Positions 3,810-55,522 of a stretch of DNA of 64,000 bases are shown here, piece after piece. The position numbers were made by a program, and so were the translations under genes. Below the pieces are notes generated by a model, which was not told the origin of the DNA, searched no databases, and saw only the letters and a program-made list of their open reading frames with translations. Source of the DNA: a virus; IMG/VR virus record IMGVR_UViG_3300025413_000017, positions 1 to 64,000 of that record. One strand, 5' to 3'. Within the stretch, counting starts at the first letter, position 1; each line of letters opens with the position of its first letter.

Positions 3810-3827
3810 CTTATCCTCCTTACTATA

Positions 3828-3856: not shown

Positions 3857-3857
3857 G

Positions 3858-3938: not shown

Positions 3939-3940
3939 GG

Positions 3941-4031
3941 TGGAGGAAGAAGAGGGATTCGAACCCTCGGTGGGCTATAAACCCACGGTTGTTTAGTAGA
4001 CAACTGCCTTAAACCACTCGGCCATTCTTCC
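3941..4031 (-). tRNA. tRNA-Ser with anticodon ACT
   Basis: A class II tRNA on the minus strand: acceptor GGAAGAA pairs with TTCTTCC, D-arm of the Ser/Leu type (GGCCGAGTGGTTTAAGGC), anticodon stem GTTGT/ACAAC with loop CTACTAA, long variable arm GTGGG/CCCAC, T-arm GAGGG-TTCGAAT-CCCTC. CCA is encoded (3943-3941). The loop gives anticodon ACT, reading the serine codon AGU, where the usual tRNA has GCT. The discriminator is T, not the common G. Both oddities are visible directly. Confidence 0.85.
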
Positions 4032-4035
4032 AGTA

Positions 4036-4090
4036 GGTCAATAGCACTCCTAGTATAAAGGAGGTGAAAACTAAGCAGATACTATTGACC
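4036..4090 (-). ncRNA. 55-nt hairpin RNA in a tRNA-sized slot, with anti-SD sequence
   Basis: Between tRNA-Arg and tRNA-Ser, and separated from them by only 2 and 4 nt, lies a perfect 9-bp inverted repeat (GGTCAATAG 4036-4044, CTATTGACC 4082-4090). Inside is a second stem CTCCT/AGGAG. The minus-strand RNA contains TCACCTCCTTT (4067-4057), identical over 11 nt to the 3' end of bacterial 16S rRNA. It does not fold as a tRNA. Processing of the flanking tRNAs would release it as a small closed-stem RNA. The function is unknown. Confidence 0.5.
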
Positions 4091-4092
4091 AG

Positions 4093-4166
4093 CGCCCCCG
4101 GTAGGACTTGAACCTACAACCTGCGGGTTAGAACTCCGATGCTCTGTCCAGTTGAGCTACAAGGGC
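4093..4166 (-). tRNA. tRNA-Arg (TCT)
   Basis: A 74-nt minus-strand tRNA: acceptor GCCCTTG pairs with CGGGGGC using two G-U pairs, discriminator G, D-stem GCTC/GAGC, loop GTTCTAA giving anticodon TCT, T-arm GTAGG-TTCAAGT-CCTAC. No CCA is encoded. The anticodon stem is weak, with mismatches at its first and last positions, so decay or compensation by modification is possible. It reads AGA, a codon favoured in AT-rich genes. Confidence 0.85.
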
Positions 4167-4176
4167 TGTTTTATTC

Positions 4177-4205
4177 AGTATAGTTAAATCAGTATTTAGA
4201 ATCAA
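4177..4205 (-). promoter_or_regulatory. Promoter of the tRNA cluster
   Basis: Minus-strand -35 TTGATT (4205-4200), 17-nt spacer, -10 TATACT (4182-4177), ending about 10 bases before the 5' end of tRNA-Arg. It overlaps the stop of gene 4202-4441. Confidence 0.7.
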
Positions 4206-4441
4206 CCACTACCAGGGCCATATGGATCTGTAGAAATTCCATTTGCCCTAAGTATTTGAATTGCCCTATCATAATAAGAACTATTCATAGCACCAATTTG
4301 AGGTGCTGCCTTTCTAATTAATGCGTAAATCCATTGTTGATTATCAGCTGGATTTTCAAAAGCAGCCAAATAGTTAGGACCAGCAGGAATGTTAGATCTT
4401 TCAAGTAGAAAACTGGCAGCCCATCTAAGTTCTTTATTCAT
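4202..4441 (-). CDS. Hypothetical protein, 79 residues
   Basis: A small, probably helical protein (MNKELRWAASFLLERSNI, then QQWIYALIRKAAPQIGAM and YYDRAIQILRANGI) with a Gly/Pro-rich end. I do not recognise it. Its start follows the stop of the GT17-like gene by one base (TAATATG), so it belongs to that operon, and its 3' end contains the -35 of the tRNA promoter. Confidence 0.6.
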   Translation of the reverse strand: MNKELRWAASFLLERSNIPAGPNYLAAFENPADNQQWIYALIRKAAPQIGAMNSSYYDRAIQILRANGISTDPYGPGSG

Positions 4442-36490: not shown

Positions 36491-39400
36491 TTACTTGGGT
36501 TCAGGAATAGTATCAAAACCCAGTTCATCATTGGTTTCTGAATAATCTACTGGGCCTTCATCATAGATAACAGGTCCGTCTCCAGGTACAGATTCACCAT
36601 TATTAGGTGTGGTCCATTGGTCACTAATATTAAGTTGTTGATTAGATGCTCTAGAAATAACCGGAATGTTAATCTTAGTTGTAATTCCTTGCTTCCTAGA
36701 AATATTACTTATTACTGGAATGTTAAGCTTAGTAATAATATTTTGAGCCATGCGGTAAATGGCTTCTACTTGAATACCTAAGTGTTTTCCAAGATATTTT
36801 CTAGAAGTAATTGAACCTACAGAAGTTGCTTTAGCTTTTCTAATATAGTTAACACTACGATTAGTACCAATAGAGTAAGAAGTAGTAACTTTAACATTTC
36901 TACGGTATTGGTGAGTTCTAGTAACAGTTGCACCAACAACTTGATTAGCGGTTGCCTTTCGGTTGTAATGTCTAATTCTCATAAAGTAAGAAGTGTTAGT
37001 TAGTAGAGCTTTAACATATCTTACACGATGTTTAGTATTAGTATTTATAGAAGTTCTAACTTGAGTTGCTCTAATGTTACGACTTCTAACATACTGAACT
37101 TTAGAACTATTAACTTGTACTGCAGAAAATACTCTACGAACTTTAACTACACTAAACCTAGAAACATTAGTTTGTAATACCCTAACTTTTTTACTGCGAG
37201 TAGTTGTAATTCTAGGTATAGAAATATTTGTTGCTCTAATAACTTTAAGTTGATTTCTTCTTAAGAAAGAAGAATTAACATTAAGTACCTTTATATTTTT
37301 AAGTTGAACTTTATATATTCTTGGAATATTAAGTTGAGTAACTCTAATATTTCTAATTCTTACAGTAATAGATCTACTTGAATTAACTAAAGTGGCTTGA
37401 GCTTTACGTACTCTGTTTGCAATTCTAAGCAATGAGGCTGTGTTTATTCTAGTAACTGATACTTTTCTAAAAAACTGAGAACTTTTTAAAACTTTAGCAG
37501 AATATAAAATTACAGCCTTACCGGTATCTTTTTGAAAGTTTCTGAAATCACCAAAATAGAAAACTTCTACAGCGGTTGGGAATCTAAGAAGTGCTTTACG
37601 TCTATAATTTTTAGTTATATTAATTGATGTTGCAGGAGAAACTGCTTTACCCCTAGTAATATATCTAGGTGGTGCTATATTAATTAATGTTGCTCTAACA
37701 GTTTTAACTCTTGTTGTAGAAACTTTAGCAATATTATTTAATGAAGCATAAATATTCTTTGTTCTAACTGTACGAAGCTTAGAACTACTTAAAGTAGTAG
37801 AATATATCATCTTATTTCTAGAATAACGAGGTTTAGCAATATTGAATAAAGTAACTGTTATATTTCTGAAATCTGTTCTTTGTTTAAATACACTAGCAGT
37901 ATTAATTAAGGTAACTTTAACTGCACGAATTGGATTGTGTACTTTAATAAAGTAAGAACTTCTTATTTGTGTTACTGAAATTCTTTTAACTGGGTTGAAT
38001 ACTTTAATAGCATAAGAAGTATTAGTTTTTGAAACACGAATTAATTTACTTATACTTTTAAGAGACTTAGCTGCATTAGTAGAAACAGCTTTTATATTTC
38101 TTCCTCTAATATAGTGTATTACACCAACACCAACTTGAGTTGCATTGTAGTTTCTACTTCTGAAAGTAGTTCTTATAAGACTAGCACTATTAAATTGAGT
38201 GACAGAAGCAAACTTACCTTTAAAAACTAACTTAACAGCCCTACTTATATTAACTTGAACTGCATTTATAAGCCTAACTCTAACAATTGGTGGTCTTAAA
38301 GCAAAAGCAGTATTTGTAAGTAAAGCTTGAACTTTTTTAATTCTTAAGTATTGTAAACTTTGAGCACTAACTTGTACAACTGAAATTAATTTTGGTAGTT
38401 TGATAAATGAAGCTTTTACATAAATAGTTCCAGTAAAGGATGCAACTGCTGTTCTATTTAAAGTTCTTTGTGATGGGAATAGTGTTTCACCACCAAATAA
38501 TGCTTGGGAGATTTGGCGACCGGTATACTTAACTACTCTATTAATATTTTCAATAAAGTAAGAAGTGTTAACTCTAACTATAGTTACATTTTTACTTATT
38601 GCTTTAGAAGTTCTAGCTGCACCAATAACAGAGGCAATAGCAGACTTAGGAAGTGAAATTGGTGGTTGTGGAGAAGGAAGGTATGCTGAGCCACGGTTAA
38701 AAGCATTGGTGATATATACACCAAGATTAAAGTTAGCTCTAGTAACCCCATCTAGTGCAATACTTGCTGAAGTTTGAAGGACTTTAATAAATGCAGTTCT
38801 AGTCTTTTGTACACTAGCTGCACCAACATTTACAGCATTTATTAACTTATAAAGTGTATAAATAATAGGAACTATATAGTAAGCAGTTCCACCTTTAAAG
38901 GCAGCAGAAATTTGGTTACCAAGAGTCCAGTTACGTCCAATACCTTCAAGTGCAATACTTCCAGAAGTTTGTTGTGAAAAGATAAAAAATGATTTTAATC
39001 TTCTTATACCGGCCGCTCCAATTTGGGAAGCATAAACTGTTCTGTTAAGTCCGGTTTGTATTGTAGGGTAGTAGTATTCCAATCCACCTTTAAATGAATT
39101 AGATATTTGTTCTCCAACTAATTGAAAGTTACCAATATATCTCTGAATACCTTCTAGGGCACTACTTGCATACCCTTGTATTGCTGTAATTACTTTACTT
39201 GTAGTTTTTTGTACGGGAGCAGCTACACTAATATTTGAAGCACTGACCGAACGTTGTTGGATTCTAACTGGGAAGAGTAAATTACTGCCTCTATTAAAAA
39301 GGTTGGTAATATAAACATAGGTATTGCCAAGGGTAGGTGGGAGTAATCTAAAAACTTTACTTGGTGCAGAAGTTGTAACAAAAACATTTGCTACAAGATT

Positions 39401-39622
39401 ACGAATAGTTTGGGTAGGGTAAAGTATACCATTTTGATATACTCTTTGAGAGGCTGGGAATATACCTTTAATTAAATAACCGTAATAACGGTAAACACCA
39501 TAGGCATAATTACTACTTACTTGAGTAATTTTTATATTGATAGTAAGAGCTCTTTTACTACCGCTATCTAATACTATACCATCTTTAAGTACGGCTTTTG
39601 AGTCTCCGTATATGCTTTGCAT
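36491..39622 (-). CDS. Giant basic repeat protein
   Basis: A 1043-residue protein that I do not recognise. The N-terminal 350 residues contain several blocks with SIALEGIGR-like, SNSFKGGLEYY-like and SAAFKGGTAYY-like elements in rough 80-residue spacing. Residues about 350-970 are an imperfect repeat of about 18-20 residues with alternating hydrophobic and Lys/Arg positions around an N-T-[AS] core (VSKTNTSYAIK, VTLINTASVFK, VTRINTASLLR). The whole is strongly basic, but the last 50 residues are acidic (SVPGDGPVIYDEGPVDYSET). A long beta-solenoid fibre or a polyanion-binding surface protein is possible. Confidence 0.65.
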   Translation of the reverse strand: MQSIYGDSKAVLKDGIVLDSGSKRALTINIKITQVSSNYAYGVYRYYGYLIKGIFPASQRVYQNGILYPTQTIRNLVANVFVTTSAPSKVFRLLPPTLGNTYVYITNLFNRGSNLLFPVRIQQRSVSASNISVAAPVQKTTSKVITAIQGYASSALEGIQRYIGNFQLVGEQISNSFKGGLEYYYPTIQTGLNRTVYASQIGAAGIRRLKSFFIFSQQTSGSIALEGIGRNWTLGNQISAAFKGGTAYYIVPIIYTLYKLINAVNVGAASVQKTRTAFIKVLQTSASIALDGVTRANFNLGVYITNAFNRGSAYLPSPQPPISLPKSAIASVIGAARTSKAISKNVTIVRVNTSYFIENINRVVKYTGRQISQALFGGETLFPSQRTLNRTAVASFTGTIYVKASFIKLPKLISVVQVSAQSLQYLRIKKVQALLTNTAFALRPPIVRVRLINAVQVNISRAVKLVFKGKFASVTQFNSASLIRTTFRSRNYNATQVGVGVIHYIRGRNIKAVSTNAAKSLKSISKLIRVSKTNTSYAIKVFNPVKRISVTQIRSSYFIKVHNPIRAVKVTLINTASVFKQRTDFRNITVTLFNIAKPRYSRNKMIYSTTLSSSKLRTVRTKNIYASLNNIAKVSTTRVKTVRATLINIAPPRYITRGKAVSPATSINITKNYRRKALLRFPTAVEVFYFGDFRNFQKDTGKAVILYSAKVLKSSQFFRKVSVTRINTASLLRIANRVRKAQATLVNSSRSITVRIRNIRVTQLNIPRIYKVQLKNIKVLNVNSSFLRRNQLKVIRATNISIPRITTTRSKKVRVLQTNVSRFSVVKVRRVFSAVQVNSSKVQYVRSRNIRATQVRTSINTNTKHRVRYVKALLTNTSYFMRIRHYNRKATANQVVGATVTRTHQYRRNVKVTTSYSIGTNRSVNYIRKAKATSVGSITSRKYLGKHLGIQVEAIYRMAQNIITKLNIPVISNISRKQGITTKINIPVISRASNQQLNISDQWTTPNNGESVPGDGPVIYDEGPVDYSETNDELGFDTIPEPK
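36660..38600 (-). repeat. Imperfect 18-20-residue coding repeats
   Basis: Protein-level tandem repeats within the basic protein 36491-39622; bounds are approximate. Units follow V-[TS]-x-x-N-[TI]-[AS] with Lys/Arg before the next hydrophobic pair. The DNA copies are diverged, so recent slippage is unlikely. Confidence 0.6.
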
Positions 39623-40689
39623 TATGATAACCTTGTTATAGTAACAGAACCGTTAACTAGAGTACCTCTATAAGTTCCATTATAAGAATTAAGGTTAATA
39701 ATAGTAGAACCATTAAAAGTACTAGTACCGGCCCAAGTACCTGTACTAGTACTTACATTAGTAGCAGAAGAAATAATATAAGAACCGCCACCGCCTCCAT
39801 TGTCGGGGCTTTGATTTTGATTACTTCCACCACCCCCAGTATAACCACCACCAGCTCCACCTCCACCAGTATTACCGTGAGTTCCACCACCACAACCAAA
39901 ACCACCATAAGCACTGGTTGCTGTATTTCCACCAGTTGCACCATTTACAAAACCACTACCAGCTCCACTATATCCGTATCCTGCTGCATTAGCTGCTGCA
40001 GTACCTGAACCATAAAATCCACCACCTCCACCACCCCAACCATTATTAGAGCCAGTACCACCGTAACCTGTACCACCGTTACCTCCCCCAATACCAGAAT
40101 TATCTGCTGAATTAGATGCAGTAAAATTCATTTGTCCCTGAGCTCCTGCAATACTATAGGCACCATTACCATCAAGACCGCCACCTCCACCGCCAGCAAT
40201 GATGAGAGGCGATGAAGTATAATTAGTTCCACTAGTTACAAAAGTCCCACCACCACCGCCACCACTTGTTGAAGATTGCCCATATTGTCCTACCAATATA
40301 GTAACAATTCCACTTTGTACTAATTGAACTGTAGCTTGAATTATTGCACCAGCACCAACAACTAAATTAGTACTAGCACCTGGAGCACCAAATGCTTTAA
40401 TTTGATATAATCCAGTTGCAGGGACTGTCCATAACTGATAACCATTTTGAGTCATATTAAAAAAAGCAGTATTGCTTGCCCAACTTGTACTTGCATTAGA
40501 AGTTAAACCACTAAGTGCTTGAGAAAGATTAGGTCCATTTTGACCTGTAGCTGTTCCTGCAGTAAAAGTAAGTGTAGTATTAATATTAAATGGATATAAT
40601 GGAGGTATACTGTTTGTATTAAGATTATTACCATCAGCAAAACCAAAATCTCTAGCAGAGTCTTCTCCAAAAGTTTGAAGTAGAGGCAT
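39622..40689 (-). CDS. Glycine-rich fibre-tip protein, type B1
   Basis: A 355-residue protein. The N-terminal 115 residues (MPLLQTFGEDSARDFGFADG, LYPFNINTTLTFTAGTATGQ, LWTVPATGLYQIKAFGAPGA) match proteins 40689-41693 and 47214-48152 and the end of 49083-52610. The C-terminal 230 residues are Gly-rich (GGGGGTFVTSG, IAGGGGGGLDGNGAYS), ending SGSVTITRLS-like. The Gly-rich architecture resembles polyglycine-II sandwiches of gp38-type adhesins at fibre tips. It is the closest relative of its neighbour 40689-41693, indicating tandem duplication. Confidence 0.75.
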   Translation of the reverse strand: MPLLQTFGEDSARDFGFADGNNLNTNSIPPLYPFNINTTLTFTAGTATGQNGPNLSQALSGLTSNASTSWASNTAFFNMTQNGYQLWTVPATGLYQIKAFGAPGASTNLVVGAGAIIQATVQLVQSGIVTILVGQYGQSSTSGGGGGGTFVTSGTNYTSSPLIIAGGGGGGLDGNGAYSIAGAQGQMNFTASNSADNSGIGGGNGGTGYGGTGSNNGWGGGGGGFYGSGTAAANAAGYGYSGAGSGFVNGATGGNTATSAYGGFGCGGGTHGNTGGGGAGGGYTGGGGSNQNQSPDNGGGGGSYIISSATNVSTSTGTWAGTSTFNGSTIINLNSYNGTYRGTLVNGSVTITRLS

Positions 40690-41693
40690 TATGCTATCCT
40701 TGTAATAGTTGCATAACCATTTGGTTGATTATAAACACCTAAATCTGTTATAGTAGCAATTCCGTAACTTCCACCTGCACCACCACTTCCAATACCCTGT
40801 GTACCATTATAAGAACCACCACCGCCACCACCTGAAAAACCACCTCCACCGCCACCACCAGCTGCAGCTGAATTACCATTTGCTGCTCCACCACCACAAC
40901 CAAAACCGCCTACACCACCACCAGTTCCACCTGAGTTACCACCTGTATAAGTTGATGTAGGGGTACCAAACCCTCCACCACCAGCAGACTGAGAGTCCCC
41001 TGTAAGTGTTGCATTTCCACCCTGTCCTTGACCACCATTTTGAACACCGGTACCAAATGAACCGTTAGTGCCTCCAACACCTGCAGATTGACCTGTACCA
41101 TTCCCACCACTAGTACCAATTAATCCATCATTACCAGGAGTTACAGTCCATTGATTAGAACCTCCGGCTCCACCAGCAATAAAAAGAGGAACATTTGTAT
41201 TTTTATAATATACAAAAGTCCCGCCACCTCCACCCAGGTTCCAACCACCGCTACCTACTCCACCTGCTTGACCAATAACAATTCTAATAATATCACCAGA
41301 AATTAAATTATAAGTCCCTGTTAGAGTTCTTCCATACCCTCTATAAACATTTCCTGACCCTGACATCCTACTACCCGTACCTTGCCCACCAGCCCCACCA
41401 GCTAATTGAAATTGATATGTACCAGTGATTGGTACAGTCCATTCTTGGACTCCATTTATAACCATATTAAAAAAAGCAGTATTACTAGACCAACTTGTAC
41501 TTTGATTAGAGCTTAAACCTGCAATTGCTTGAGATAAATTAGGCCCAGACTTTCCAGTTATTCCCCCTGAAGTAAAAGTTATATAAGAACTTATTGGGAA
41601 TGTATAAAGTGAAGGTAATGCAATACCTATATTACCATCAGCAAAACCAAAATCTCTAGCAGAATCCTCTCCAAAGGTCTGAAGCATTGGCAT
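40689..41693 (-). CDS. Glycine-rich fibre-tip protein, type B1
   Basis: A 334-residue paralogue of 39622-40689: MPMLQTFGEDSARDFGFADG at the start, ITFTSGGITGKSGPNLSQAI, QEWTVPITGTYQFQLAGGAG, then Gly-rich motifs (GGGGGTFVYYK, IAGGAGGSNQW, GGGGGGGFSGGGGGG) and NGYATITRIA at the end. Type A fibre 41696-43237 immediately precedes it, so the pair probably forms shaft and tip. The tip regions of the two B1 neighbours differ most in the Gly-rich loops, as expected for receptor-binding variation. Confidence 0.75.
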   Translation of the reverse strand: MPMLQTFGEDSARDFGFADGNIGIALPSLYTFPISSYITFTSGGITGKSGPNLSQAIAGLSSNQSTSWSSNTAFFNMVINGVQEWTVPITGTYQFQLAGGAGGQGTGSRMSGSGNVYRGYGRTLTGTYNLISGDIIRIVIGQAGGVGSGGWNLGGGGGTFVYYKNTNVPLFIAGGAGGSNQWTVTPGNDGLIGTSGGNGTGQSAGVGGTNGSFGTGVQNGGQGQGGNATLTGDSQSAGGGGFGTPTSTYTGGNSGGTGGGVGGFGCGGGAANGNSAAAGGGGGGGFSGGGGGGSYNGTQGIGSGGAGGSYGIATITDLGVYNQPNGYATITRIA

Positions 41694-41695
41694 GG

Positions 41696-43237
41696 TTAGA
41701 ACTTTGTTTGACTTGCGAGTACCGTATAGGTTGGAGTGGCTGCTGTTTTAATAACAGTAAATGTATAGGCATCAATACCATTAACATTACCTGAAGCTGG
41801 GCAAGTGCCACCTTGCCAATATGTAGCAAAATTAGATGAATTACCATCAATTTGAATTGCAGTATTAGCACCACTAACTGTCATGTAAGCCGGACTACCT
41901 TGAGTTGTTAAAGCAGTAAAAGTGATACTTTGACCAACACCCAATGTACTACTAATTGTACCAGAGGTTGTTAGGTTAAAAGTAAAATTATTTGTTGCAT
42001 TAACAGTGTAATAGTTAATGGTACCAGTAGTACCAGAGAAAGTAACTGTTCCATTCAATGCGGGTGAAGAAACAATGTTTACAGTTTCTTTAGCACTAGT
42101 AAAAGTTGGGTTAATAAAAGTGGTATTATTACTTGTTACACCATTTGCAGTACCACTGTTAAGTACAACATTATTTAGGGTTGCATAACCAAAAGTTTGA
42201 CCACTAGCAAGTGCTGTAGGAGTTAAGAATTGTACCCATGGACAAGGACTTACACCAATAGTTGCACTTGGGTTCATTTGACATTGCCAGGTTGTACCAT
42301 AATAGATATTTCCTTGACCCACTTGAATAAGACTAGCTACTAGTTTTGAAGTTGTGTCAACATCATTGTCTCTAACAAGTACAGGTGAAACAGCACCGGC
42401 ACTACTTGTATTTACATATACACCATTGTATGCAGAATTAGTTTGTCCTGTAAGTAGTATTCTATCTCCTGGTTGAATGACATAACCATCAACTGAGAAA
42501 GTAGAACCATAACCAGATGAAACTGTAAAAGTATCAACACTTAGTGGGTAGTCATTTGTGGTATTACCATTAGGTGTATAGAGACCTGAAATATTAGTAA
42601 CTGCTACTGCTTGTACTGTTTGGTGAATATTATAATTGACCCATTCTGGGCCACCATTAGCAATATTACCATAACTCATAAGTAGTGCACCAGCAGCACC
42701 GGTTGCACCACCACCATTGTTTGATGTATCTGACCATGCACCAGTTGCACTTCCAAAAGGAACTGCTCCTGGAGTCAAACCACTAATAAGTCCTGGTTGA
42801 ACTGCTTGTGGTTTAATACCACTACCAGTTGAAAAGAATGCCTGGCCACTTGAAGTTGCAACTTGGCCTAGTGTTTGACTAACAACATTATTTGCTTCGA
42901 AAAGGTCAACACCTGTCATTACAAAAGCAGTAATTGAACCACTAACGTGTGCTACAGCACTTGTGTTATCTTGAGCTCTAGTAATACCACTAATTACAAC
43001 TGGGCTAGCAATTCCTAAACTCCAGTTATAAGCTCCACTAGGAACAAATATTTTTTCTTCAAGTGCTGTACCGTAATCAAGTGCTAAAAAGAACCCACCA
43101 TTAACACCAAGTGGATACCAACCACTAGAAGTATTTACAATTGCTATTTGAGTACCGGTAATACTAACAGCCGCTGCTAATGCAGCAGTTGGGGCACCAC
43201 CAGTATAACTGTTGAGAGAGTAGGGCGCTCTTGCCAT
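41696..43237 (-). CDS. Tail fibre with type A anchor module
   Basis: A 513-residue fibre. Residues 1-140 are the A module shared with five genes here: MARAPYSLNSYTGGAPTAAL, GGFFLALDYGTALEEKIFVP, ISGITRAQDNTSAVAHVSG and GVDLFEANNVVSQTLGQVAT. The middle resembles a short trimeric-fibre insert (YPLSVDTFTVSSGYGSTFSV, RILLTGQTNSAYNGVYVN). The end, GIDAYTFTVIKTAATPTYTV then LASQTKF, matches A proteins 48154 and, more loosely, 53888. The following B1 genes may supply its tip. Confidence 0.75.
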   Translation of the reverse strand: MARAPYSLNSYTGGAPTAALAAAVSITGTQIAIVNTSSGWYPLGVNGGFFLALDYGTALEEKIFVPSGAYNWSLGIASPVVISGITRAQDNTSAVAHVSGSITAFVMTGVDLFEANNVVSQTLGQVATSSGQAFFSTGSGIKPQAVQPGLISGLTPGAVPFGSATGAWSDTSNNGGGATGAAGALLMSYGNIANGGPEWVNYNIHQTVQAVAVTNISGLYTPNGNTTNDYPLSVDTFTVSSGYGSTFSVDGYVIQPGDRILLTGQTNSAYNGVYVNTSSAGAVSPVLVRDNDVDTTSKLVASLIQVGQGNIYYGTTWQCQMNPSATIGVSPCPWVQFLTPTALASGQTFGYATLNNVVLNSGTANGVTSNNTTFINPTFTSAKETVNIVSSPALNGTVTFSGTTGTINYYTVNATNNFTFNLTTSGTISSTLGVGQSITFTALTTQGSPAYMTVSGANTAIQIDGNSSNFATYWQGGTCPASGNVNGIDAYTFTVIKTAATPTYTVLASQTKF

Positions 43238-46364: not shown

Positions 46365-47162
46365 CTAATATCCTAACATTACATCCGTTGGTTGAAACGG
46401 ATAAATTGTTTGACTGTTGTTAAGTGGTGGTGCAGGCATATAATTGCCTTGAAAAGATTGGTTAACTGGTGTTTGTGCGGTCGTTGTTGTAGGTACTTCT
46501 TGAAAAAATATGTTTCCGTTATAATCTACCTGGAATCCAGCCTGTGGTACATACGATAACCATACCCATTCTGGTTGATTCCATTTTTGTGGGACACCGC
46601 TTAAGTATAGTTCAAGTGAAAGCGGATTTGTGAAACTTATTGGAACACCTTGATAAGTAGCTTTAAAGTTTGTATTTGCACCATCAAAAAGAACTGATAT
46701 ATCATCTAGGGGAACTATATCTTGAAATACAAAGTTAGCAAAACCAATGCCTGTACCATTTAGTGCAAGTGCTTGACCACTAGTTGCGGTAGTTACTTGA
46801 CCAAGTGTTTGTGCTACTAAGTTATTTGCTTCTTGTAAATCTACAGCAGTTAATGTTGGGGCAACTGTTGCACCCAAAATGTGTTGCTGAGCTGTGGTAC
46901 CATCAACTCCACGGCTTACACCACTTACAGTAACAGTACCACTAGAATAATTATAGTTACCGGCTGGAACATATACTTTTTCTTCGTATATATTTCCAAA
47001 GTCAAGAACTAGGTAATAACCACCACCTGAACCTAGAGTTGCCCAAGAAATTCCAACATTATTTAGTGTAAAAGTTGTATCACTATTAAGTATGTTATTG
47101 CCAAGTGTGGCAAGCGTTGCTCCACCAACATAAGTATTTTGTGAATAGGCAGTACGTGGCAT
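46365..47162 (-). CDS. Short tail fibre with type A module
   Basis: A 265-residue protein with the A module: MPRTAYSQNTYVGGATLATL, GGGYYLVLDFGNIYEEKVYV, SGVSRGVDGTTAQQHILGA, AVDLQEANNLVAQTLGQVTT. After it comes FQDIVPLDDISVLFDGANTN and a short end without B-type or lectin domains. The distal part IPLDDISVLFDG-like text resembles the small domains of adaptor or hub-attached fibres. It may be an attachment platform instead of a receptor binder. It is not followed by a B gene in the direction of transcription. Confidence 0.7.
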   Translation of the reverse strand: MPRTAYSQNTYVGGATLATLGNNILNSDTTFTLNNVGISWATLGSGGGYYLVLDFGNIYEEKVYVPAGNYNYSSGTVTVSGVSRGVDGTTAQQHILGATVAPTLTAVDLQEANNLVAQTLGQVTTATSGQALALNGTGIGFANFVFQDIVPLDDISVLFDGANTNFKATYQGVPISFTNPLSLELYLSGVPQKWNQPEWVWLSYVPQAGFQVDYNGNIFFQEVPTTTTAQTPVNQSFQGNYMPAPPLNNSQTIYPFQPTDVMLGY

Positions 47163-47213: not shown

Positions 47214-48152
47214 TTAAGAAAGTCTAGTTATAGTACAGTAACCATTTTGGCCAGCGCCATTTGATCCAAGTGTATTTGTTTGATTAGTTCCAGTATTATA
47301 AGAACTACCACCAACACCATTCCAAGACCACTGGGTTGAGTTTCCACCTGTCCATCCGCCTCCACCACCAGCACCGTTGGTTTGACCACCACCACCTCCA
47401 CCACCAAAGCCACCATATGCTGAGTAACTTGGGTCAGTTAATCCTTGTTGAAATCCTTGACCATACCAGTTTCCTTGACCATTACCATAAAACCCACCTC
47501 CACCACCTGGATTACCATTGGTACCAGTATTACGTCCACCATAACCATCTGAGTAGCCACCATAACCATTAGCATTTGTTAAAGTAGTTTGAGAAGAAGA
47601 AGCATTAATGCTTCCACCACTAGCTGAGTTACCTCCTGCACCACCAGCAATAATTAAAGGGATAGCAGTAGTAGCAACAGAACCTGAAGCAACAAAAGTT
47701 CCTCCACCTCCACCAGCATCATAACCGTTATTTGCACCACTTTGACCTATTGTTATTGTTAACTTGGAACCTTGGGTAAGTGCAAAAGTTCCTGTTATAT
47801 TGGCAGGTTGACCACCAGCAGGACCATAATAAATAGAAGAACCACCAGTAGCTCCATAACACTGTATCTGGTAAGTACCAGTTATAGGCACAGACCAAAC
47901 TTGATAACCAGTGTAAGTACCAGTATTAAAAAATGATGTATTGATATTCCAAGAAAGGGAGGCATTAGAGGTCATTCCAGCTATCATTTGTGATAATGAA
48001 GGTCCGGTAGGGCCTGTCTGACCGCCTGTATTAAATGTTACATAAGTACCAACATTAAAAGTATATAAAGGTGGTATAGTTGGTGGAGTACCAAATGTAC
48101 CTGCACCATCTCCACGACTGGCTGCATTTGAAAAACTATCAAATAATGGCAT
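47214..48152 (-). CDS. Glycine-rich fibre-tip protein, type B1
   Basis: A 312-residue B1 protein: MPLFDSFSNAASRGDGAGTF, LYTFNVGTYVTFNTGGQTGP, YQVWSVPITGTYQIQCYGAT, then DAGGGGGTFVASG, IIAGGAGGNSASGG and other Gly-rich motifs, ending NGYCTITRLS. It follows the A fibre 48154-49035 by one base, again giving an A-then-B pair. The start differs more from the other B1 proteins than they do from each other. Confidence 0.75.
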   Translation of the reverse strand: MPLFDSFSNAASRGDGAGTFGTPPTIPPLYTFNVGTYVTFNTGGQTGPTGPSLSQMIAGMTSNASLSWNINTSFFNTGTYTGYQVWSVPITGTYQIQCYGATGGSSIYYGPAGGQPANITGTFALTQGSKLTITIGQSGANNGYDAGGGGGTFVASGSVATTAIPLIIAGGAGGNSASGGSINASSSQTTLTNANGYGGYSDGYGGRNTGTNGNPGGGGGFYGNGQGNWYGQGFQQGLTDPSYSAYGGFGGGGGGGQTNGAGGGGGWTGGNSTQWSWNGVGGSSYNTGTNQTNTLGSNGAGQNGYCTITRLS

Positions 48153-48153
48153 T

Positions 48154-49035
48154 TTAGTATCTAGTCTGGCTTGCTAGTGTTATATAGGTTGGAGTTGCAG
48201 AAGTTTTAATAATATTAAAAGTATAAGCGTCAATACCATTACCAAATCCAGAAACTGGAGCTGTACCACCATACCAGTACATATTAATTGGTCCACCACT
48301 ATATACCTGTACTACACCATCGATTTGAAAACCTGAAGAAACCAAGTAATAACCCGTAGCACCGTTTGTTACTAAAAGACTTGCTGTAATACTCTGCCCA
48401 ACTGCCAAAAGACTATTAAGTGTACCACTAGCAGTTAAATTTATAGAGAATTGAGAAGTTGTAGCTCCATTATATAGATATGTACTTCCTGAACTAACGT
48501 TTAAAGTCATCAATCCACCAACAGCGTTACTACTTACATATGTTGTTTCCATTGTTCCGTTAAGGACAGGATTAGTAAGGAGAGATTTTGGAGTAGAAAG
48601 AAGGTTAGGAGTAAAGGAAACACCAGAACCAGTTGAAGTCAAGATTTGACCACTAGTTGCAGTTGTTAAGTTACCAAGTACACTATTTACCAACTGGTTG
48701 GCTTCTGAAGTTTCAATTGCAGTAAGGACTGGTACAACACTAAGTCCTGCAACTTGAAGGTAAGATGTAGTGTTGTCATAACCACGAGTAATTCCACTAA
48801 GGGTTACCCCACCACTTGTCCAAGGGTAGTTACCACTAGGAACAAAGATCTTTTCTTCATTTACTCCACCATAGTTAATAGCAAGGTTAAATCCACCGGC
48901 ACCACCCAAGCCACTCCAGGTGGTATTTGTTCCTGTTATAGTAATTACTGTACCAGTTGCTGTAACACTATAAAAGAGGGTAGCCGGTATGGCTCCTCCT
49001 GTATATGAGTTTACGCTATAGGGTATTCTTGGCAT
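48154..49035 (-). CDS. Tail fibre with type A module
   Basis: A 293-residue protein with a complete A module: MPRIPYSVNSYTGGAIPATL, GGFNLAINYGGVNEEKIFVP, SGGVTLSGITRGYDNTTSYL, IETSEANQLVNSVLGNLTTA. Its second half (GSGVSFTPNLLSTPKSLLTN, then YLYNGATTSQFSINLTASG) is the same beta unit as in 49083 and 53888. It ends GIDAYTFNIIKTSATPTYIT then LASQTRY, the A-type C-terminus. The B1 gene 47214-48152 follows after one base. Confidence 0.75.
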   Translation of the reverse strand: MPRIPYSVNSYTGGAIPATLFYSVTATGTVITITGTNTTWSGLGGAGGFNLAINYGGVNEEKIFVPSGNYPWTSGGVTLSGITRGYDNTTSYLQVAGLSVVPVLTAIETSEANQLVNSVLGNLTTATSGQILTSTGSGVSFTPNLLSTPKSLLTNPVLNGTMETTYVSSNAVGGLMTLNVSSGSTYLYNGATTSQFSINLTASGTLNSLLAVGQSITASLLVTNGATGYYLVSSGFQIDGVVQVYSGGPINMYWYGGTAPVSGFGNGIDAYTFNIIKTSATPTYITLASQTRY

Positions 49036-49082: not shown

Positions 49083-52000
49083 TTATGAAAGTCTAACAAT
49101 TGTTACTGAACCATTACGTGCATTACCGGTTAGTGCAGAATTGTTATCAGTACCATTAGTGTTTACTTGGTTAGCTCCAGAGTTATATGAACCACCACCA
49201 CCGCCACCACCCCATGAAGCCCAAGTACCATAACCACCACCACCATAGCCACCGCCACCACCTACAGCAAGTCCACCACCACCACCACCACCAAAACCAC
49301 CGTAACAATTATATGTACCCCAGCTTAGGTTTTCTTGAGAACCTATTCCACCGTTAGTAAATGATGTTGCTGCAGCACCACTACTATTGGTACCATTACC
49401 AGTATATCCTGCAGCATTTCCTTGTTGACCATTACCACCTACACCGTTTGGTCCAGTAGCTCCAACCCCACCGTTACCTTGCCCACCATTACTACCAAAT
49501 GTGTAAGTTGTCCCTCCACGACCATAGTTATAGGAAGGGTTACCAGTAAAAATCCAAGCACCTCCACCTCCACCTGCTACAATTAAAGCAGTTGCAGTAC
49601 TGGCAGTTGCACCTAATGCAACAAAAGTTCCTCCACCTGAACCAGCTTGCTGACCACCTTGTGAAAAGCCAATATTACTAGGTGCTGTTTGACCCACCAG
49701 TATAGTGAGTTGCTGACCCTGGGTGAGGGAGAAGTCACCCTGCATTACTGCACCACTACCACCATAATAACCATAACTAGTGCAGTTACCACCGGCAGCA
49801 CCACTTGCAGTTATTCGATAAGTTCCAGTTGCTGGTACTGTCCAAAGTTGATAACCATTGTAACTGCCTTGATTGAAGAATTGTGTATTACTTGACCAAC
49901 TAGTTGATTGATTAGATGAAAGTCCTGTAATGGCTTGTGCAAGGGATGGACCATTTTGCCCAGATACACCTGCACTTGTAAAGGAAAGACTTGTACCAAC
50001 TGGGAAGTTGTAAAGACCTGTTGAATATAAAACACCACTTGCTGCAACTTTACTACTTAATACAGTATAAGGCCTTCCAGCTTGATAAAGGTTTTGAATT
50101 TGAGCTGCGGAAAGGGCACTTCTAAATATTGCAACTTGATTTACATAGCCAGTATATTGAAAACCACCATTGGTACTAGCACCAATTACTAGACTACCAC
50201 TAGCAACCATGTTAGGTGCCATACTAGTAGATGTTCCATTTGCTACACCGTCTACATAAAGTTGGTAAGTTGTGTTTCCTGCACTAACAGCAGTGGCCTG
50301 AAGTGTGGCCATGTGCCAAGTTCCATCATTTACTTTTGTAGAACTAACTGGGCCACCCACAAATGCATTATCAACTTCAAGGTTACCAGTTGCATTGGTA
50401 AACATAAAAATACCATTATTAATAGCAGAGGCATTACTACCAATAACTACAAAGTCACCACGAGTACTTTGAGTAGTATTAAACCAGGCATTAATAGTGA
50501 AACTTTGATTATTTCCCCAGTTGGGAGTATAATTAGTGCTAACAATATTTTGACCGGCAGGATTAAAGTAAGCTGAATAATCGCTTGGTATTACAGGGTT
50601 AAACCCTTGTTGCACTTGAATAACATTACCACTGTAGTTACCAATGTAACCGTTAACAGAAGAATCGGTGGCTACACGAGTTGAGTTTGGGTCATTAAGT
50701 TTAAACCAGACATCTGGATTGTAACCTGAAAGAACTGTATCAAAGTTTAAATTATTTCTTAATACAGTAAATGTGTAAATATCAATACTATTAGCAACAC
50801 CACTTGATATAGGAGCTATACCACTAATTGTATTAAAATAGTAATTTTGACCAGAAGTTATTGTATAACCATCAACACTAATACCACTATAGTTACCACT
50901 TTGTAATAGTGCATAACCTGTACTTCCTTGAGTTGCAAGTAGGTTAGTTGTTATAGATTGGCCAGAATTCATTACAGTTGCAAGGGTATTGTTTGTAGTA
51001 ATATTAACTGTAAAGTTACCACTTGCTGGTACTGTGTAGAATGAAGTATTACCTGAGCTTGTATTAATAGTTAAACCACCATTAATACCAGTATTTAGAA
51101 TATTTATTGTTTCAAGTGGTGACTTAAGAATTGCATTATTTAATTTAGTACCTGGGGTAAATTGAGGAGTATAAACAATACCCGAACCTGTACTAGCCAA
51201 AGCTTGACCACTATAGGTGGCTGCAGGAAAGATTGCTTGGTTGACTAGTGCATTTGCTTCACGAAGTTCTACAGCAGTTAATACTGGAGTAACACTTGAA
51301 CCACTTGGGTGGACTTGAGCTGTAGTATTATCAATACCACGAGTTACTCCACTAACTGTAATTGAACCAGAACCAGTAAGATATGGAGAAATTGTATATA
51401 GACTTACAACATTAAGGTTACCAGCAGTATTGGTATTTGCAATATAAGCAAAGTTGCCACTAGGAGTAATTGCTAGTCCACCTGGTGCATTTAAATTGTA
51501 TTGGGTACCACTTATAGTATAAATAAGGTTATTGGTTGCTGTATCAAATACACTGATACTGTTACCACCAAGACTAGTAACAAAAAGATAATTACCACTT
51601 GTAGTAGTCTGCATTGACATAATGGTTTGAGTACCATTATTACCGGTGTTAAGAGTACCACCACTAATAATTGCAGTTACCGTATCAGTATTAGAGTTGA
51701 TTACACTAACTGAATTACCATTATAGTTCCAAACATAAACATAAGGAACTCCACTAACAGTTGTAGTAACTGAGGATAGAGGCGTATTAAACCCTGTGGT
51801 TAGACCACTAATAGTAGTAACATAAGTATTTGTATTTAGGTTAACAACAGTGATTTTATTTGCAGCTTGGTTACTAACATACATCTTACCATTAATAGCA
51901 GACATATTTCCAATATTACTAAAGTTGAAACTAGTACCACTCCATACAGTTGCAAGAGTATTGGTTGCAGTATTAATTACACTCACTGCATTATTAACAG

Positions 52001-52610
52001 GCCCTGCAACATAAAGAAAGTTACCACTACTAGTTGTTGTAGTAGTAATGTATTGAGAATTACCATTTAGTCCATAAGTTGCACCACTTAAAGTAGTAAT
52101 ATAGGCATTGGTAGTTGTGTTATAGACTAATACAAAACCAGAAGCATAACCACCAAAGTAAGTTTGGTTATTAGTAGAAAAAGCAGCTCCTTGAAGACCA
52201 AGAAGACTGGTATTATTACCGCTCAAAATTGTAGTTAGAGTATTTGTAGCTGTACTGAACACTCCGATATTACCAGAAATTTGCTGTGGCAAGAAAATTT
52301 TATCACCACTAGGAGTAATATAAGTATCTGCAATTACATTAGCACCACTACTAAAACCAGAAATGGTTGCATAAGGTGTATTAGTACCAGCAAATGCTCC
52401 AGAAATTACAGGTACATAAATCTTTTCTTCTGTGGTTTGACCATACTGAAGTGAAAGATTAAATCCATTACCAGAACCAAGAGTTGTCCATGTTGAACCA
52501 GTACCTGTTATAGTAATTGTAGTATCAGCGGCACCAATACCACTACCAGCAATAAAGCCTGGTGTTGCTCCACCTGTGTACGAGTTTAGTGAGTAAGGTA
52601 ATCTTGGCAT
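49083..52610 (-). CDS. Giant A-propeller-LamG-B fusion fibre
   Basis: A 1175-residue fibre with five parts. Residues 1-66: first half of the A module, ending EEKIYVPV. Residues about 67-412: six or so YVTN-type beta-propeller repeats (VFSTATNTLTTILSG, VINTATNTLATVWSG, VVNLNTNTYVTTISG). Residues about 413-500: rest of the A module (SITVSGVTRGIDNTTAQVHP). Residues about 650-855: LamG/concanavalin-like domain (WFKLNDPNSTRVATDSSVNG). Residues about 870-1175: complete B1 glycine-rich tip, ending NGSVTIVRLS. Other genes here encode A and B separately. Confidence 0.8.
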   Translation of the reverse strand: MPRLPYSLNSYTGGATPGFIAGSGIGAADTTITITGTGSTWTTLGSGNGFNLSLQYGQTTEEKIYVPVISGAFAGTNTPYATISGFSSGANVIADTYITPSGDKIFLPQQISGNIGVFSTATNTLTTILSGNNTSLLGLQGAAFSTNNQTYFGGYASGFVLVYNTTTNAYITTLSGATYGLNGNSQYITTTTTSSGNFLYVAGPVNNAVSVINTATNTLATVWSGTSFNFSNIGNMSAINGKMYVSNQAANKITVVNLNTNTYVTTISGLTTGFNTPLSSVTTTVSGVPYVYVWNYNGNSVSVINSNTDTVTAIISGGTLNTGNNGTQTIMSMQTTTSGNYLFVTSLGGNSISVFDTATNNLIYTISGTQYNLNAPGGLAITPSGNFAYIANTNTAGNLNVVSLYTISPYLTGSGSITVSGVTRGIDNTTAQVHPSGSSVTPVLTAVELREANALVNQAIFPAATYSGQALASTGSGIVYTPQFTPGTKLNNAILKSPLETINILNTGINGGLTINTSSGNTSFYTVPASGNFTVNITTNNTLATVMNSGQSITTNLLATQGSTGYALLQSGNYSGISVDGYTITSGQNYYFNTISGIAPISSGVANSIDIYTFTVLRNNLNFDTVLSGYNPDVWFKLNDPNSTRVATDSSVNGYIGNYSGNVIQVQQGFNPVIPSDYSAYFNPAGQNIVSTNYTPNWGNNQSFTINAWFNTTQSTRGDFVVIGSNASAINNGIFMFTNATGNLEVDNAFVGGPVSSTKVNDGTWHMATLQATAVSAGNTTYQLYVDGVANGTSTSMAPNMVASGSLVIGASTNGGFQYTGYVNQVAIFRSALSAAQIQNLYQAGRPYTVLSSKVAASGVLYSTGLYNFPVGTSLSFTSAGVSGQNGPSLAQAITGLSSNQSTSWSSNTQFFNQGSYNGYQLWTVPATGTYRITASGAAGGNCTSYGYYGGSGAVMQGDFSLTQGQQLTILVGQTAPSNIGFSQGGQQAGSGGGTFVALGATASTATALIVAGGGGGAWIFTGNPSYNYGRGGTTYTFGSNGGQGNGGVGATGPNGVGGNGQQGNAAGYTGNGTNSSGAAATSFTNGGIGSQENLSWGTYNCYGGFGGGGGGGLAVGGGGGYGGGGYGTWASWGGGGGGGSYNSGANQVNTNGTDNNSALTGNARNGSVTIVRLS

Positions 52611-52648: not shown

Positions 52649-53035
52649 TTACAGGGTTAATTGTAAATTTGAAGTTATCCAACTTTTAGAAGTTTCTTCC
52701 CATTCATAGATTTTCCCATCAGTTGGATAAGAAATAGGAGAATTCCATTGACCTGTCTTTGCATCTAATTTATCCCAGCTAGGGTATGGTTGGGGTGGTG
52801 AAAATATATCTAAATCTGGGTGATAGATGTATCCAATACCAGCATAATTTGCTCTCAATGGTTTACCTCCCAGATTGTGTTTTCCTAATCTAGTATTGTA
52901 ACTTGTTTGAATCCAGGTTCCTCCAAAATCACATTCATTAGCTAAATAATTTTGACCATCATTTTGATAAATATCATCAACAACAATTATTCTTAAAACT
53001 ATATTGTTTTTATCTATTTCTGCAAAGTGTGCCAT
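52649..53035 (-). CDS. Small fibre-region protein of a marine/freshwater phage family
   Basis: A 128-residue protein, started at ATG 53035 (MAHFAEIDKNNIVLRIIVVD), which follows the previous stop by one base. The text FGGTWIQTSYN, NYAGIGYIYHPDLDIFSPP, YPSWDKLDAKTGQW and GKIYEWEETSKSW matches a hypothetical family I know from cyanophages and other aquatic phages, usually encoded beside tail fibres. Function unproven; a fibre chaperone or small virion protein is plausible. Its presence supports an aquatic origin. Confidence 0.75.
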   Translation of the reverse strand: MAHFAEIDKNNIVLRIIVVDDIYQNDGQNYLANECDFGGTWIQTSYNTRLGKHNLGGKPLRANYAGIGYIYHPDLDIFSPPQPYPSWDKLDAKTGQWNSPISYPTDGKIYEWEETSKSWITSNLQLTL

Positions 53036-53036
53036 A

Positions 53037-53885
53037 TTATGCAATATAAGTCAAGATTATTATACCTGACCCTCCGGATTTAGGATTGTTATCAAAAGTA
53101 CCACAACCACCTCCACCACCCCCGGTTTGAGGTGTTCCAGCAACTGATACATTTATATTTGTTCCACCAGCACCACCCCCACCTATACCACCTGCAGCTT
53201 GAGGTGTAGAACTACCTCCACCCCCACCACCTCCGGCTAAAATAAAAGTTCCTGAGGCAGTTACAAATGTACCACCCGAACCGCCTGCACTACCTGGGTT
53301 TTGTTGACCAGATATGTCTGTACCAGGTGCCGCATAACCACCACCACCAGATGCCCCGTACTGTCCACCGGATGTAGCATTTCCTCCCCTATTACCTTGG
53401 CCTACTGTCCCATTACCACCAACTTGACGATTAGCTCCACCACCAGATCCACCACCGGTTACACCTTGGGCTAATCCTTGACCACCACCACCTCCACCAA
53501 CTGCAGTAGTTACAGAACCAAAAGTTGTAGGATTACCTACAGAACCAGCTGTCACAGCACTTGAATCTGCAGAACCAATTCCAGCAGCACCACCTGCACC
53601 AACACTATAAGAAATTCCTGTACCAGTTACACCTGTCAATATACCACTAACAACACCTCCGGCACCTCCACCCCCACCACCAGTGGCATTACTCCATCCA
53701 CCTCCTCCACCTCCACCACCTGCTACAAGTATATAACTTATTCCTTGAGCAGTAAGTGTTGGGGGAGAATTAAAAACACCAGTACCAGAAAGTATTATTT
53801 GATATAACTTAGTAGGTATAACAGGTACACCTCCAACTCCATAAGCTTGAGCACTAGCTGTTCCAATAGTTTCAAGGAAAGGCAT
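53037..53885 (-). CDS. Glycine-rich fibre-tip protein, type B2
   Basis: A 282-residue protein. The short start (MPFLETIGTASAQAYGVGGV) resembles the B1 start, but the rest is different: ISYILVAGGGGGGGGWSNAT, then GGGGGAGGVV, FGSVTTAVGGGGGG, IAGGGGGGG and an end GSGIIILTYIA. The same Gly-rich plan forms the end of 32964-34829. It follows A fibre 53888-55522 by two bases and is the probable tip of that fibre. Confidence 0.75.
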   Translation of the reverse strand: MPFLETIGTASAQAYGVGGVPVIPTKLYQIILSGTGVFNSPPTLTAQGISYILVAGGGGGGGGWSNATGGGGGGAGGVVSGILTGVTGTGISYSVGAGGAAGIGSADSSAVTAGSVGNPTTFGSVTTAVGGGGGGQGLAQGVTGGGSGGGANRQVGGNGTVGQGNRGGNATSGGQYGASGGGGYAAPGTDISGQQNPGSAGGSGGTFVTASGTFILAGGGGGGGSSTPQAAGGIGGGGAGGTNINVSVAGTPQTGGGGGGCGTFDNNPKSGGSGIIILTYIA

Positions 53886-53887
53886 AG

Positions 53888-55522
53888 TTAGAAAGTTGTC
53901 TTACTCGCTAATACTGTATATGGAACTCCAGCTTGGTATAATGATAATACTTGAGCAGCTGAAAGTGTAGAGGTAAATAATATAACTTCAGAAATTGTTC
54001 CAGGAAAAATTCTTTGAAAACTTGGAGAAACTGCATCTGATCCAATACTCAATATTCCAGTGGGAGCTAAAGCAACAGTTCCAGTATCTGTATATACTTG
54101 AAAACCATCTAGATAAAAACGAGGGTAACCTGAAGAATCTAGGGTCATTACTACAAAATGCCAACCCGGGGTTACTACAACGCCTGTTGGTATCCAACGA
54201 GTTAATTCAAATAATCCTTGTAGAGTATTACCTAAAGCATCAGCGTTTGGAGCACTATTAGAACCAATACCAAAACCATAACCAGTACTAGTAGCTGCAT
54301 TATGTAGCATTAGTATTATACCACTAGAAGTAGCTGCTGGCATATTGAACCATGCACCCATTGATACGTTAGTAGTTGCAGTAACTCCTGTGTTAGAAGT
54401 AATATAACCAGAACTTGCATTAACATTAAATCCACTAACTGTAGTTAAATAGGGGAAAGGACCTGACTGTCCAAAGTTAATTGTTCCTGTAACAGTACCA
54501 GTATATCCATTACCTGAGCTATCTGCAGCAGTGGTTGAACCAGCAGGTTCTCCCAACTTATACCAAGCTCTAGGAGATAATGCAGCTACTTGAGTTTCAT
54601 AAGAAGACCCATATGGAGAATAAAGTGCAGTAACAGAATAAATATCAATACCATTGGCATTACCACTACCAGGAGCTGTACCACCTTGCCAATAAACTTG
54701 CCCTGAACTTATTACAACATTATCAATAGAAATAGGACTACTACCAAGAAGTCCACTTGTTGTTGCATAAGCTGGAGAACCTTGCTTGGTTAATATAGTA
54801 GTAGTAATTGCTGTACCAGTAGTTAAAGTAGGGCCAAGGTTACCACTTGAAGTAATATTTAAATTAAATGTTCCAGTTGCTGCAGAACTATAATACCAAA
54901 CACTGCCTGAGCTAGTTGAAATTGTAGTTGTTCCATTTACTCCTGCATTAACAACATTAATCTTTTCATACCCTGCTTGTAAAATTGGATTGACAAGTGT
55001 AGAATTTGTATTTAAAGTTCCACTTGTTGTACCACCACGAATACTACCATTGGATATAATAGGATAAGAAATAACAGTTCCAGAAGAAACTGTAGCATTC
55101 CCATAAGATATTCCTGTACCATTAGATACTAATGCTTGACCACTGGAGGTAGTAACGTTGAGTAAAGTTTGACTTACTAGTAGATTGGCTTCCGTTAAAT
55201 CTACTGCTGTTAAGATAGGAACAGCACTTACACCAGCAAGTTGCAATTGTGCAGTTGTTCCATCAATACCTCTACTTACTCCACTAATAGTTACTGAGCC
55301 AGAAGCCCAGTTATAAGACCCGGCAGGACAATATATCTTTTCTTCAGTGGTTTGGCCATAATTGAGGGCAAGGTTAAAACCCCCAGATGTACCAAGGTTA
55401 TTCCAGGCACTTGTAGTACCGGTAATTGTAATTGTAGTTACACCAGATGCTACACCAGTAAAAAGAGTCCCGGCTGGGGCTCCTCCTACATAGGTGTTCT
55501 GGCTATATGATGTCCGTGGCAT
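53888..55522 (-). CDS. Tail fibre with type A module and LamG domain
   Basis: A 544-residue fibre. Residues 1-135 form the A module (MPRTSYSQNTYVGGAPAGTL, GGFNLALNYGQTTEEKIYCP, SGVSRGIDGTTAQLQLAGV, AVDLTEANLLVSQTLLNVTT). The middle repeats the beta unit of the other A fibres. Residues about 320-535 are a LamG/concanavalin-like carbohydrate-binding domain (WYKLGEPAGSTTAADSSGNG, MGAWFNMPAATSSG, WHFVVMTLDSSGYPRFYLDG), ending LYQAGVPYTVLASKTTF. It is the first gene of the fibre array and is followed by B2 tip gene 53037-53885. Confidence 0.8.
   Translation of the reverse strand: MPRTSYSQNTYVGGAPAGTLFTGVASGVTTITITGTTSAWNNLGTSGGFNLALNYGQTTEEKIYCPAGSYNWASGSVTISGVSRGIDGTTAQLQLAGVSAVPILTAVDLTEANLLVSQTLLNVTTSSGQALVSNGTGISYGNATVSSGTVISYPIISNGSIRGGTTSGTLNTNSTLVNPILQAGYEKINVVNAGVNGTTTISTSSGSVWYYSSAATGTFNLNITSSGNLGPTLTTGTAITTTILTKQGSPAYATTSGLLGSSPISIDNVVISSGQVYWQGGTAPGSGNANGIDIYSVTALYSPYGSSYETQVAALSPRAWYKLGEPAGSTTAADSSGNGYTGTVTGTINFGQSGPFPYLTTVSGFNVNASSGYITSNTGVTATTNVSMGAWFNMPAATSSGIILMLHNAATSTGYGFGIGSNSAPNADALGNTLQGLFELTRWIPTGVVVTPGWHFVVMTLDSSGYPRFYLDGFQVYTDTGTVALAPTGILSIGSDAVSPSFQRIFPGTISEVILFTSTLSAAQVLSLYQAGVPYTVLASKTTF

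Follow-up and report, generated by a model that had tools for sequence, protein, structure and literature searches.

The stretch of DNA considered here, hereafter the window, comprises 64,000 nucleotides (positions 1 to 64,000 of the IMG/VR virus record IMGVR_UViG_3300025413_000017), and it raises the question of whether two kinds of protein encoded side by side, A and B, assemble into one fibre. As the earlier note on this DNA had stated, separate A and B genes are adjacent, while at 49083 a single protein contains both; the gaps between the separate genes are 1, 2 and 2 nucleotides for the pairs 48154/47214, 41696/40689 and 53888/53037 (each gene is named by its lower coordinate). From this fusion the note concluded, by gene-fusion logic, that the separate proteins are likely to bind each other. 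The conclusion is probably right; the fusion alone, however, is weak evidence for it, because B1-like tips, the tip type found in the fusion, are promiscuous and commonly fused to other carriers. The case for assembly rests instead on the observation that a constant C-terminus of A (the beta unit) is almost always paired with a constant N-terminus of B (the head) while the outer ends of both proteins vary, on the association of head and beta unit within the B1 family, and on a second headless fusion of a beta unit. The reading preferred here is that A and B form one fibre, in which the beta unit would be the socket and the B head the plug, with tips exchanged through this joint; its probability is put at roughly 0.79.

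The A-B fusion is an uninterrupted frame of 1175 residues at 49083-52610 on the minus strand. An identical protein (100%, residues 1-1175) is encoded on IMGVR_UViG_3300025467_000009 (L001), a distinct record of 132,935 bp compared with 74,653 bp for that of the window, and the presence of the same open reading frame on a second contig rules out an assembly artefact as the source of the fusion. The A module, beta unit, LamG domain and B1 tip attributed to this protein are all present (Table 1), but the A module is split by a propeller into residues 1-68 and 410 onward, and the LamG domain sits inside the last hairpin of the beta unit, both of which had been missed. The B1 tip, described as full, is complete as a domain but lacks the head with which the separate B proteins begin. 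The beta unit was detected by an iterated hidden Markov model (HMM), the fusion not being listed by the PHROG_5906 profile itself, and the position of the LamG domain between the last two strands of the unit was judged visually, with the modelled strands of a related beta unit as a guide. After LamG the final strand resumes as PYTVLSSK (residues 847-854); about 10 residues separate the end of the unit from B1, whose homology begins at fusion residue 866, equivalent to B1 residue 29-31 and just past the normal end of A. Thus, some 28-30 N-terminal residues of the separate B proteins are missing from the fusion, and the remaining tip shares 46-51% identity with the three separate B1 proteins of the window. 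A head remnant within the fusion was rejected, since the best segment scored -0.1 against a mean maximum of -0.5 and a highest value of 13.6 in 200 shuffles. The AlphaFold model of the whole protein is poor (mean predicted local distance difference test, pLDDT, 46.9), with usable parts in the B1 tip and the propeller. A covalent fusion would remove the need for one element of a joint, and the head is the one that is missing.

Alignment of the starts of genes that follow beta units gives a B head consensus of 16 residues, MPLLxTxGAASA[RKQ]GFG, or more fully M-P-[LTIV]-[LI]-x-T-x-G-A-A-S-A-[RKQ]-[GA]-[FYW]-G, built from 116 unique seeds selected for an MP start. Its relation to the beta unit was examined in 326 fetched loci and the window; the loci were sampled, in two scans as the 80 most similar to the query, they overlap, and duplicates were removed by sequence rather than by contig or virus. 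The iterated beta-unit HMM gave 316 matches in 312 frames, and 196 unique units (E below 1e-4) lie in stop-ended frames. Practically all of them (193) end within 15 residues of the C-terminus; the remaining three are 53888, where an inserted LamG domain is followed by the normal tail and a headed B comes next, and two fusions. For the 191 unique C-terminal units with at least 200 nucleotides downstream, a head lies within 300 nucleotides in 170, at a score cut-off of 12 and with near-identical heads (at least 12 of 16 residues) excluded from training. With 13 more accepted by reading, the head gene is next in 183 of the 191; calls on head scores below 12, on HNH-like genes and on cyanophage heads were made by eye. 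Among the 21 sub-threshold cases, seven carry MPRLSKIGAAALAAFGW or a near relative (score 11.2-11.4), five have heads judged divergent or start-trimmed (47214, L013, the second gene of L014, L063 and L113), and in L212 the head stands ahead of a frameshift. No head is directly next in eight of the 191. Three of these (the first gene of L014, L195 and L227) lead a tandem of beta-unit genes, with a head or head-like gene after the last of the series, and in L317 an HNH-like gene intervenes; the others (L071, L078, L090 and L070) are weighed below. Of 2078 other N-termini, 12 score at least 12. Eleven of them are clear heads whose loci are cut, interrupted, rearranged or arranged in tandem; the twelfth (L137) is a divergent head after an A-module protein.

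The reverse test, based on a head-DNA pattern derived from heads already seen and free of beta-unit information, leads to the same pairing. Among the matches listed, a beta unit lies within 60 nucleotides upstream in 117 of 120 (106 of 108 after deduplication by the first 60 residues); the exceptions are L163, with merely 11 nucleotides of upstream DNA, L234, with an HNH-like gene in between, and L175. In both L317 (4323-4932) and L234 the HNH-like gene, recognised by eye, sits exactly between the beta-unit and head genes. Nine loci came from GTDB: seven have an intact unit C-terminus and, by reading, a head next in all seven, and in the other two the locus is cut or the unit is not C-terminal. 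Furthermore, a beta-unit match occurs in 28 phage records, several being copies of one phage, and in the ten examined (CRP-3, CRP-738, ctXG6705, Syn30, S-E7, P-SSM7, S-CAM22, S-MbCM6, S-SCSM1 and S-BM3) the next gene always starts with MP, with MSP or in the manner of a trimmed head. The two genes are separated by -1 to 12 nucleotides in 152 of the 170 scored cases, a closeness that would allow coupled translation. The offset is 9 nucleotides in 59 of these 170 and -1, 8 or 10 in 62; the frame is therefore not kept, and programmed read-through from A to B is unlikely. Within the window the single internal contrast is 46365, an A module without a detected beta unit and without B: the gene after it, 43249, encodes a virion structural protein (PHROG_5838) and has no head at its start. 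PHROG_5906, which matches the beta unit at the C-terminus of 48154 and of 41696 and the pre-LamG unit of 53888, is a family of no assigned function, and the role of socket is proposed for it in this work.

In contrast to the abutting ends, the outer ends vary. The tips of 175 pairs fall into 47 BLAST-linked clusters, and two tips align over half of the shorter sequence in 10.5% of cases, compared with 5.3% for two A N-terminal parts (165 A sequences); with looser linking, 155 of these 165 join one network, so that the variation among A proteins is less distinct. When ten tips were scanned against Pfam at E 0.01, six matched (DUF7483, RCC1 and FG-GAP in one each, LamG twice, and DUF4883 doubtfully, over 26 residues) and four did not. 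The second fusion, of 493 residues at 632-2114 of L072, leads from a beta unit (residues 105-224) directly into a glycine-rich tip and is headless (best head score 2.2); the same contig also carries an ordinary pair (3727-4384, then 4394). Thus, in both fusions of a beta unit (n=2) the tip is attached where the unit ends, and no head is present.

Taking into account that the abutting elements are constant and the other ends variable, these elements are best explained as the two faces of one joint. A would consist of a variable N-terminal part and a stalk ending in the compact beta unit, and B of the 16-residue head followed by an exchangeable tip. The head would fit into the far end of the beta unit, probably with one trimer sitting on another, and any head-bearing tip could be mounted on any unit-bearing fibre; the exchanged tips would include ALK-like, LamG, RCC1 and FG-GAP types and would presumably bind receptors. 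In 49083 the tip body is covalently attached to the end of the beta unit, which would leave the head unnecessary. The balance tilts slightly towards the joint being general, that is, common to phages of cyanobacteria and of the Roseobacter group and to many uncultured phages, with the head alone enough to mount a tip. Such a two-gene joint would make fibre tips recognisable from their sequence in metagenomic viruses with otherwise unrelated, unnamed tips, and would account for an exchange of tips that leaves the rest of the fibre undisturbed. The inference drawn from one fusion is hereby recast as a binding question on two small pieces.

What weighs against such a joint comes from the B1 family, from irregular loci and heads, and from structural predictions. 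A B1 HMM found 32 unique B1 domains outside the window copies, with 47214 and the fusion counted among them. Fifteen start less than 60 residues from the start of their frame, and eight of these proteins have neither head nor beta unit. On the favourable side, six are headed and directly preceded by a beta unit (L031 and L033 being near-duplicates), one is the headed second gene of the L019 tandem, where the beta-unit gene stands further up, and in none of the fifteen does a beta unit occur without a head. The other 17 domains lie at least 60 residues into longer proteins, none with a head, and 16 of these 17 are without a beta unit as well, the one with it being the present fusion; to that extent B1 is independent of A. 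Long carriers of B1 without beta unit or head occur in L016, L021, L022, L023, L024, L026, L028, L031, L034, L037 and L040. Likewise, in the three phage records examined among four with a B1 match (S-CREM1, S-SZBM1 and DSL-LC01), B1 occurs with neither a scored head nor a detected beta unit, and fused beta units amount to 2 of 196 unique ones. Judged from these domain contexts, B1 is a mobile tip on several kinds of carrier, and its distribution implies that the head goes with the beta unit and not with the tip.

It could be argued from such data that fibre domains are simply shuffled and fused by recombination, in which case the fusion would be silent on contact and A and B need not touch. 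This would accommodate the B1 tips on beta-less carriers (16 of the 32 unique domains) and the occurrence of LamG both in A (53888) and in B tips, and fibre proteins are known for especially frequent domain shuffling (PMC10684548). Shuffling alone, however, does not predict a pairing in 183 of 191 units and, among the matches listed, 117 of 120 heads, and it leaves the association of head and beta unit within the B1 family and the headless fusions unpredicted. Plain mosaicism is consequently considered very unlikely.

The irregular loci belong to the same adverse side. Gene order is changed in L071, L078 and L090, where B is found about 3 kb upstream of A and a frame of about 750-770 codons separates the displaced head gene from the beta-unit gene. 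The locus of L070 contains a beta unit and no head gene, and in L175 the 148 nucleotides ahead of the head contain the end of another gene and no beta unit. The heads of cyanophages are recognisable by eye only (Syn30 and S-CAM22 score about -7), Syn30 and S-E7 carrying the divergent form and CRP-3 and CRP-738 the clearest heads, and the window's own 47214 is divergent, scoring 8.5 with all seeds and 1.2 once near-identical heads are excluded.

Structural predictions are similarly reserved. With the beta unit linked to the head as one chain, not as a trimer, AlphaFold gave a compact beta fold for the unit (pLDDT 88-97) and no docking of the head, which was modelled as a low-confidence helix (pLDDT about 50-55). 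Of the 63 in-frame linked constructs, 46 were used. Co-variation between unit and head is weak (Mantel r 0.169, compared with a permutation maximum of 0.182 in 500), and the best inter-protein column pair reaches z 4.4 vs 6.6 for the best pairs within the unit. These results would suit a different explanation, in which B is an independent adhesin whose head anchors it to the baseplate or capsid, the operon keeps the genes together and the fusion swapped one anchor for another. No interface is predicted in the linked single chain, and neither the tandem heads behind one A (40689 and 39622; L019) nor the displaced B genes require a one-to-one joint; moreover, the N-terminal module of A may anchor A in a similar way. 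This explanation is nevertheless regarded as unlikely, given that the N-terminal parts of A vary and its constant part is the C-terminal unit adjoining B, that A without a beta unit is also without B, and that heads follow the beta unit across tip kinds and within the B1 family.

With regard to the fold of the beta unit, a PDB sequence search with the linked profile gave a cyclodextrin glucanotransferase as its best match (E 0.018), and Foldseek found nothing in the PDB at E 0.001. Against viral models Foldseek returned 86 matches at E 0.001, of which the best 50 come for the most part from uncultured phages and are either unnamed or fibre-like. The top seven VIA matches, corresponding to five distinct proteins, are all phage spike, connector or tail proteins with Z from 7.4 to 4.9: 9ny6 (7.4), 9f4a (6.2), TSP4 residues 78-180 (5.5; 94 aligned, root-mean-square deviation, rmsd, 3.2), 24qj (5.2) and T4 gp9 (4.9; 96 aligned, rmsd 3.7). 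As every Z is below 8, these likenesses are not decisive. The S16 gp37-gp38 structure is not among the structural matches listed, by which a likeness is not excluded.

The best-known pairs of fibre and adhesin are those of the T-even phages, where, as here, the adhesin gene lies directly downstream of the fibre gene (gp37-gp38). In the S16 type, gp38 caps the gp37 trimer and its glycine-rich part is the proposed receptor binder (PMC6851490, PMC12892980). The tip protein of T2 and S16 docks by its N-terminus on the fibre end, which resembles the contact proposed for A and B. In contrast, the attachment domain of S16 gp38 is made of helices with three conserved tryptophans, and the head of B, 16 residues long, shows no tryptophan consensus; by sequence, an attachment domain of the S16 type was not seen in B N-termini, where tryptophan occurs only at position 15 (9 of 116 seeds). 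Furthermore, S16 tips are glycine-rich and the present tips need not be, and the gp37 tip is a trimeric beta-helix, whereas the beta unit is predicted to be a compact beta fold. T4 gp38 represents yet another precedent, since it aids the folding of gp37 and is released after assembly (PMC12892980, PMC6851490), and B or its head might by analogy be an assembly chaperone for A rather than a tip of the virion. This is extremely unlikely, considering that B bodies are large and highly diverse, with adhesin-like folds (glycine-rich, LamG, propellers), and that in two cases such a body forms one covalent chain with a beta unit.

In the branched tailspikes CBA120 TSP4 and G7C gp66, with XD domains like those of T4 gp10 and gp9, beta domains of one fibre protein mediate its assembly with others, as is proposed here for the beta unit (PMC8825819, PMC11414711). 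The range of TSP4 matched by the beta unit lies in the XD1 region, considered a spacer by its authors (PMC8825819), and the tailspike partners dock by folded domains, unlike the short peptide that is the constant partner element here. Another comparison is with Pam3 gp24, a tail fibre of a myocyanophage with an N-terminal helical docking part, TNF-like and glycine-rich domains and a reported likeness to ALK (PMC9608196). The two agree in the TNF-like and glycine-rich, ALK-like body, and a helix in the B head is predicted at pLDDT of about 50-55 only; gp24 docks to the baseplate with gp25 as its chaperone, whereas the protein encoded ahead of B is a fibre protein with a beta unit at its end. 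For B1 itself, VIA aligned 266 residues, starting at fusion residue 869, with human ALK (Z 26.0, rmsd 3.1, 30% identity, with the model confident only in parts), an HMM comparison with the ligand-binding region of ALK/LTK gave E 1.4e-15, and PF12810 scored 18.8 bits, below its cut-off of 24.5 bits. The B1 tip, in the fusion (49086-50015) and in 47214, 40689 and 39622, accordingly has the fold of that region. Two PHROG names and three head peptides are not mentioned in the 5.39 million open-access full texts searched, and no title among the literature-search matches names such a joint; subscription papers lie outside both searches, and the second covers titles only.

Table 1. Features of the fusion and of the separate A and B genes in the window
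Feature	Coordinates	Strand	Basis
Fusion residues 1-68, first half of A module	52407..52610	-	51-59% identity to N-termini of four other A proteins; alignment
Fusion residues ~70-409, seven-repeat YVTN-like beta-propeller inserted in A module	51384..52403	-	boundaries approximate
Fusion residues 410-481, second half of A module	51168..51383	-	sequence alignment
Fusion residues 500-620, beta unit minus final strand	50751..51113	-	iterated beta-unit HMM E 5.3e-18
Fusion residues 690-839, LamG within last hairpin of beta unit	50094..50543	-	PF13385 E 5.7e-15
Fusion residues 847-856, last beta-unit strand, equivalent to C-terminus of separate A proteins	50043..50072	-	PYTVLSSKVA vs TYTVLASQTKF, PYTVLASKTTF
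Fusion residues 866-1175, B1 tip body, predicted ALK/LTK-type TNF-like and glycine-rich fold, no B head	49086..50015	-	homology start; VIA
Separate A protein ending in beta unit (48157-48558)	48154..49035	-	PHROG_5906 E 2.2e-13
Separate B1 protein, divergent head-like start MPLFDSFSNAASRGDG (48105-48152)	47214..48152	-	51% identity to fused tip
Separate A protein ending in beta unit (41699-42094)	41696..43237	-	PHROG_5906 E 1.4e-16
Separate B1 protein, head MPMLQTFGEDSARDFG (41646-41693)	40689..41693	-	head score 24.7 (all seeds), 17.9 (near-identical excluded)
Second B1 protein in tandem, head MPLLQTFGEDSARDFG (40642-40689)	39622..40689	-	head score 26.0 (all seeds)
Separate A protein: beta unit (54623-54970), LamG, terminal strand PYTVLASKTTF	53888..55522	-	PHROG_5906 E 4.5e-7; LamG E 4.8e-16
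Separate B2 protein, head MPFLETIGTASAQAYG (53838-53885), Gly_rich_2 tip	53037..53885	-	head score 25.9 (all seeds); PF21722 E 3.1e-16
A module without detected beta unit, no head gene next	46365..47162	-	no PHROG_5906 match

The propeller of the fusion (51384-52403) is absent from the four other A modules of the window. Its seven repeats were picked by eye at residues 102-413; the Pfam propeller match in the fusion (E 0.0065) is below cut-off, and Foldseek, queried with a poor model, leads to the YVTN propeller 1l0q (E 3.8e-8). Both in the window (39622-41693) and in L019, one A gene is followed by two headed B1 genes in tandem, which suggests alternative tips for a single fibre. Next to them, at 36491-39622, lies the gene of a 1043-residue protein with many short degenerate repeats (by eye), which matched neither Pfam (at E 0.1) nor PHROG (at E 0.001). 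Finally, a small protein of PHROG_7759 type, possibly an assembly factor, is encoded just past the fibre tips in the window (52649-53044), in L072 (2127-2540) and in L195 (7894-8382).

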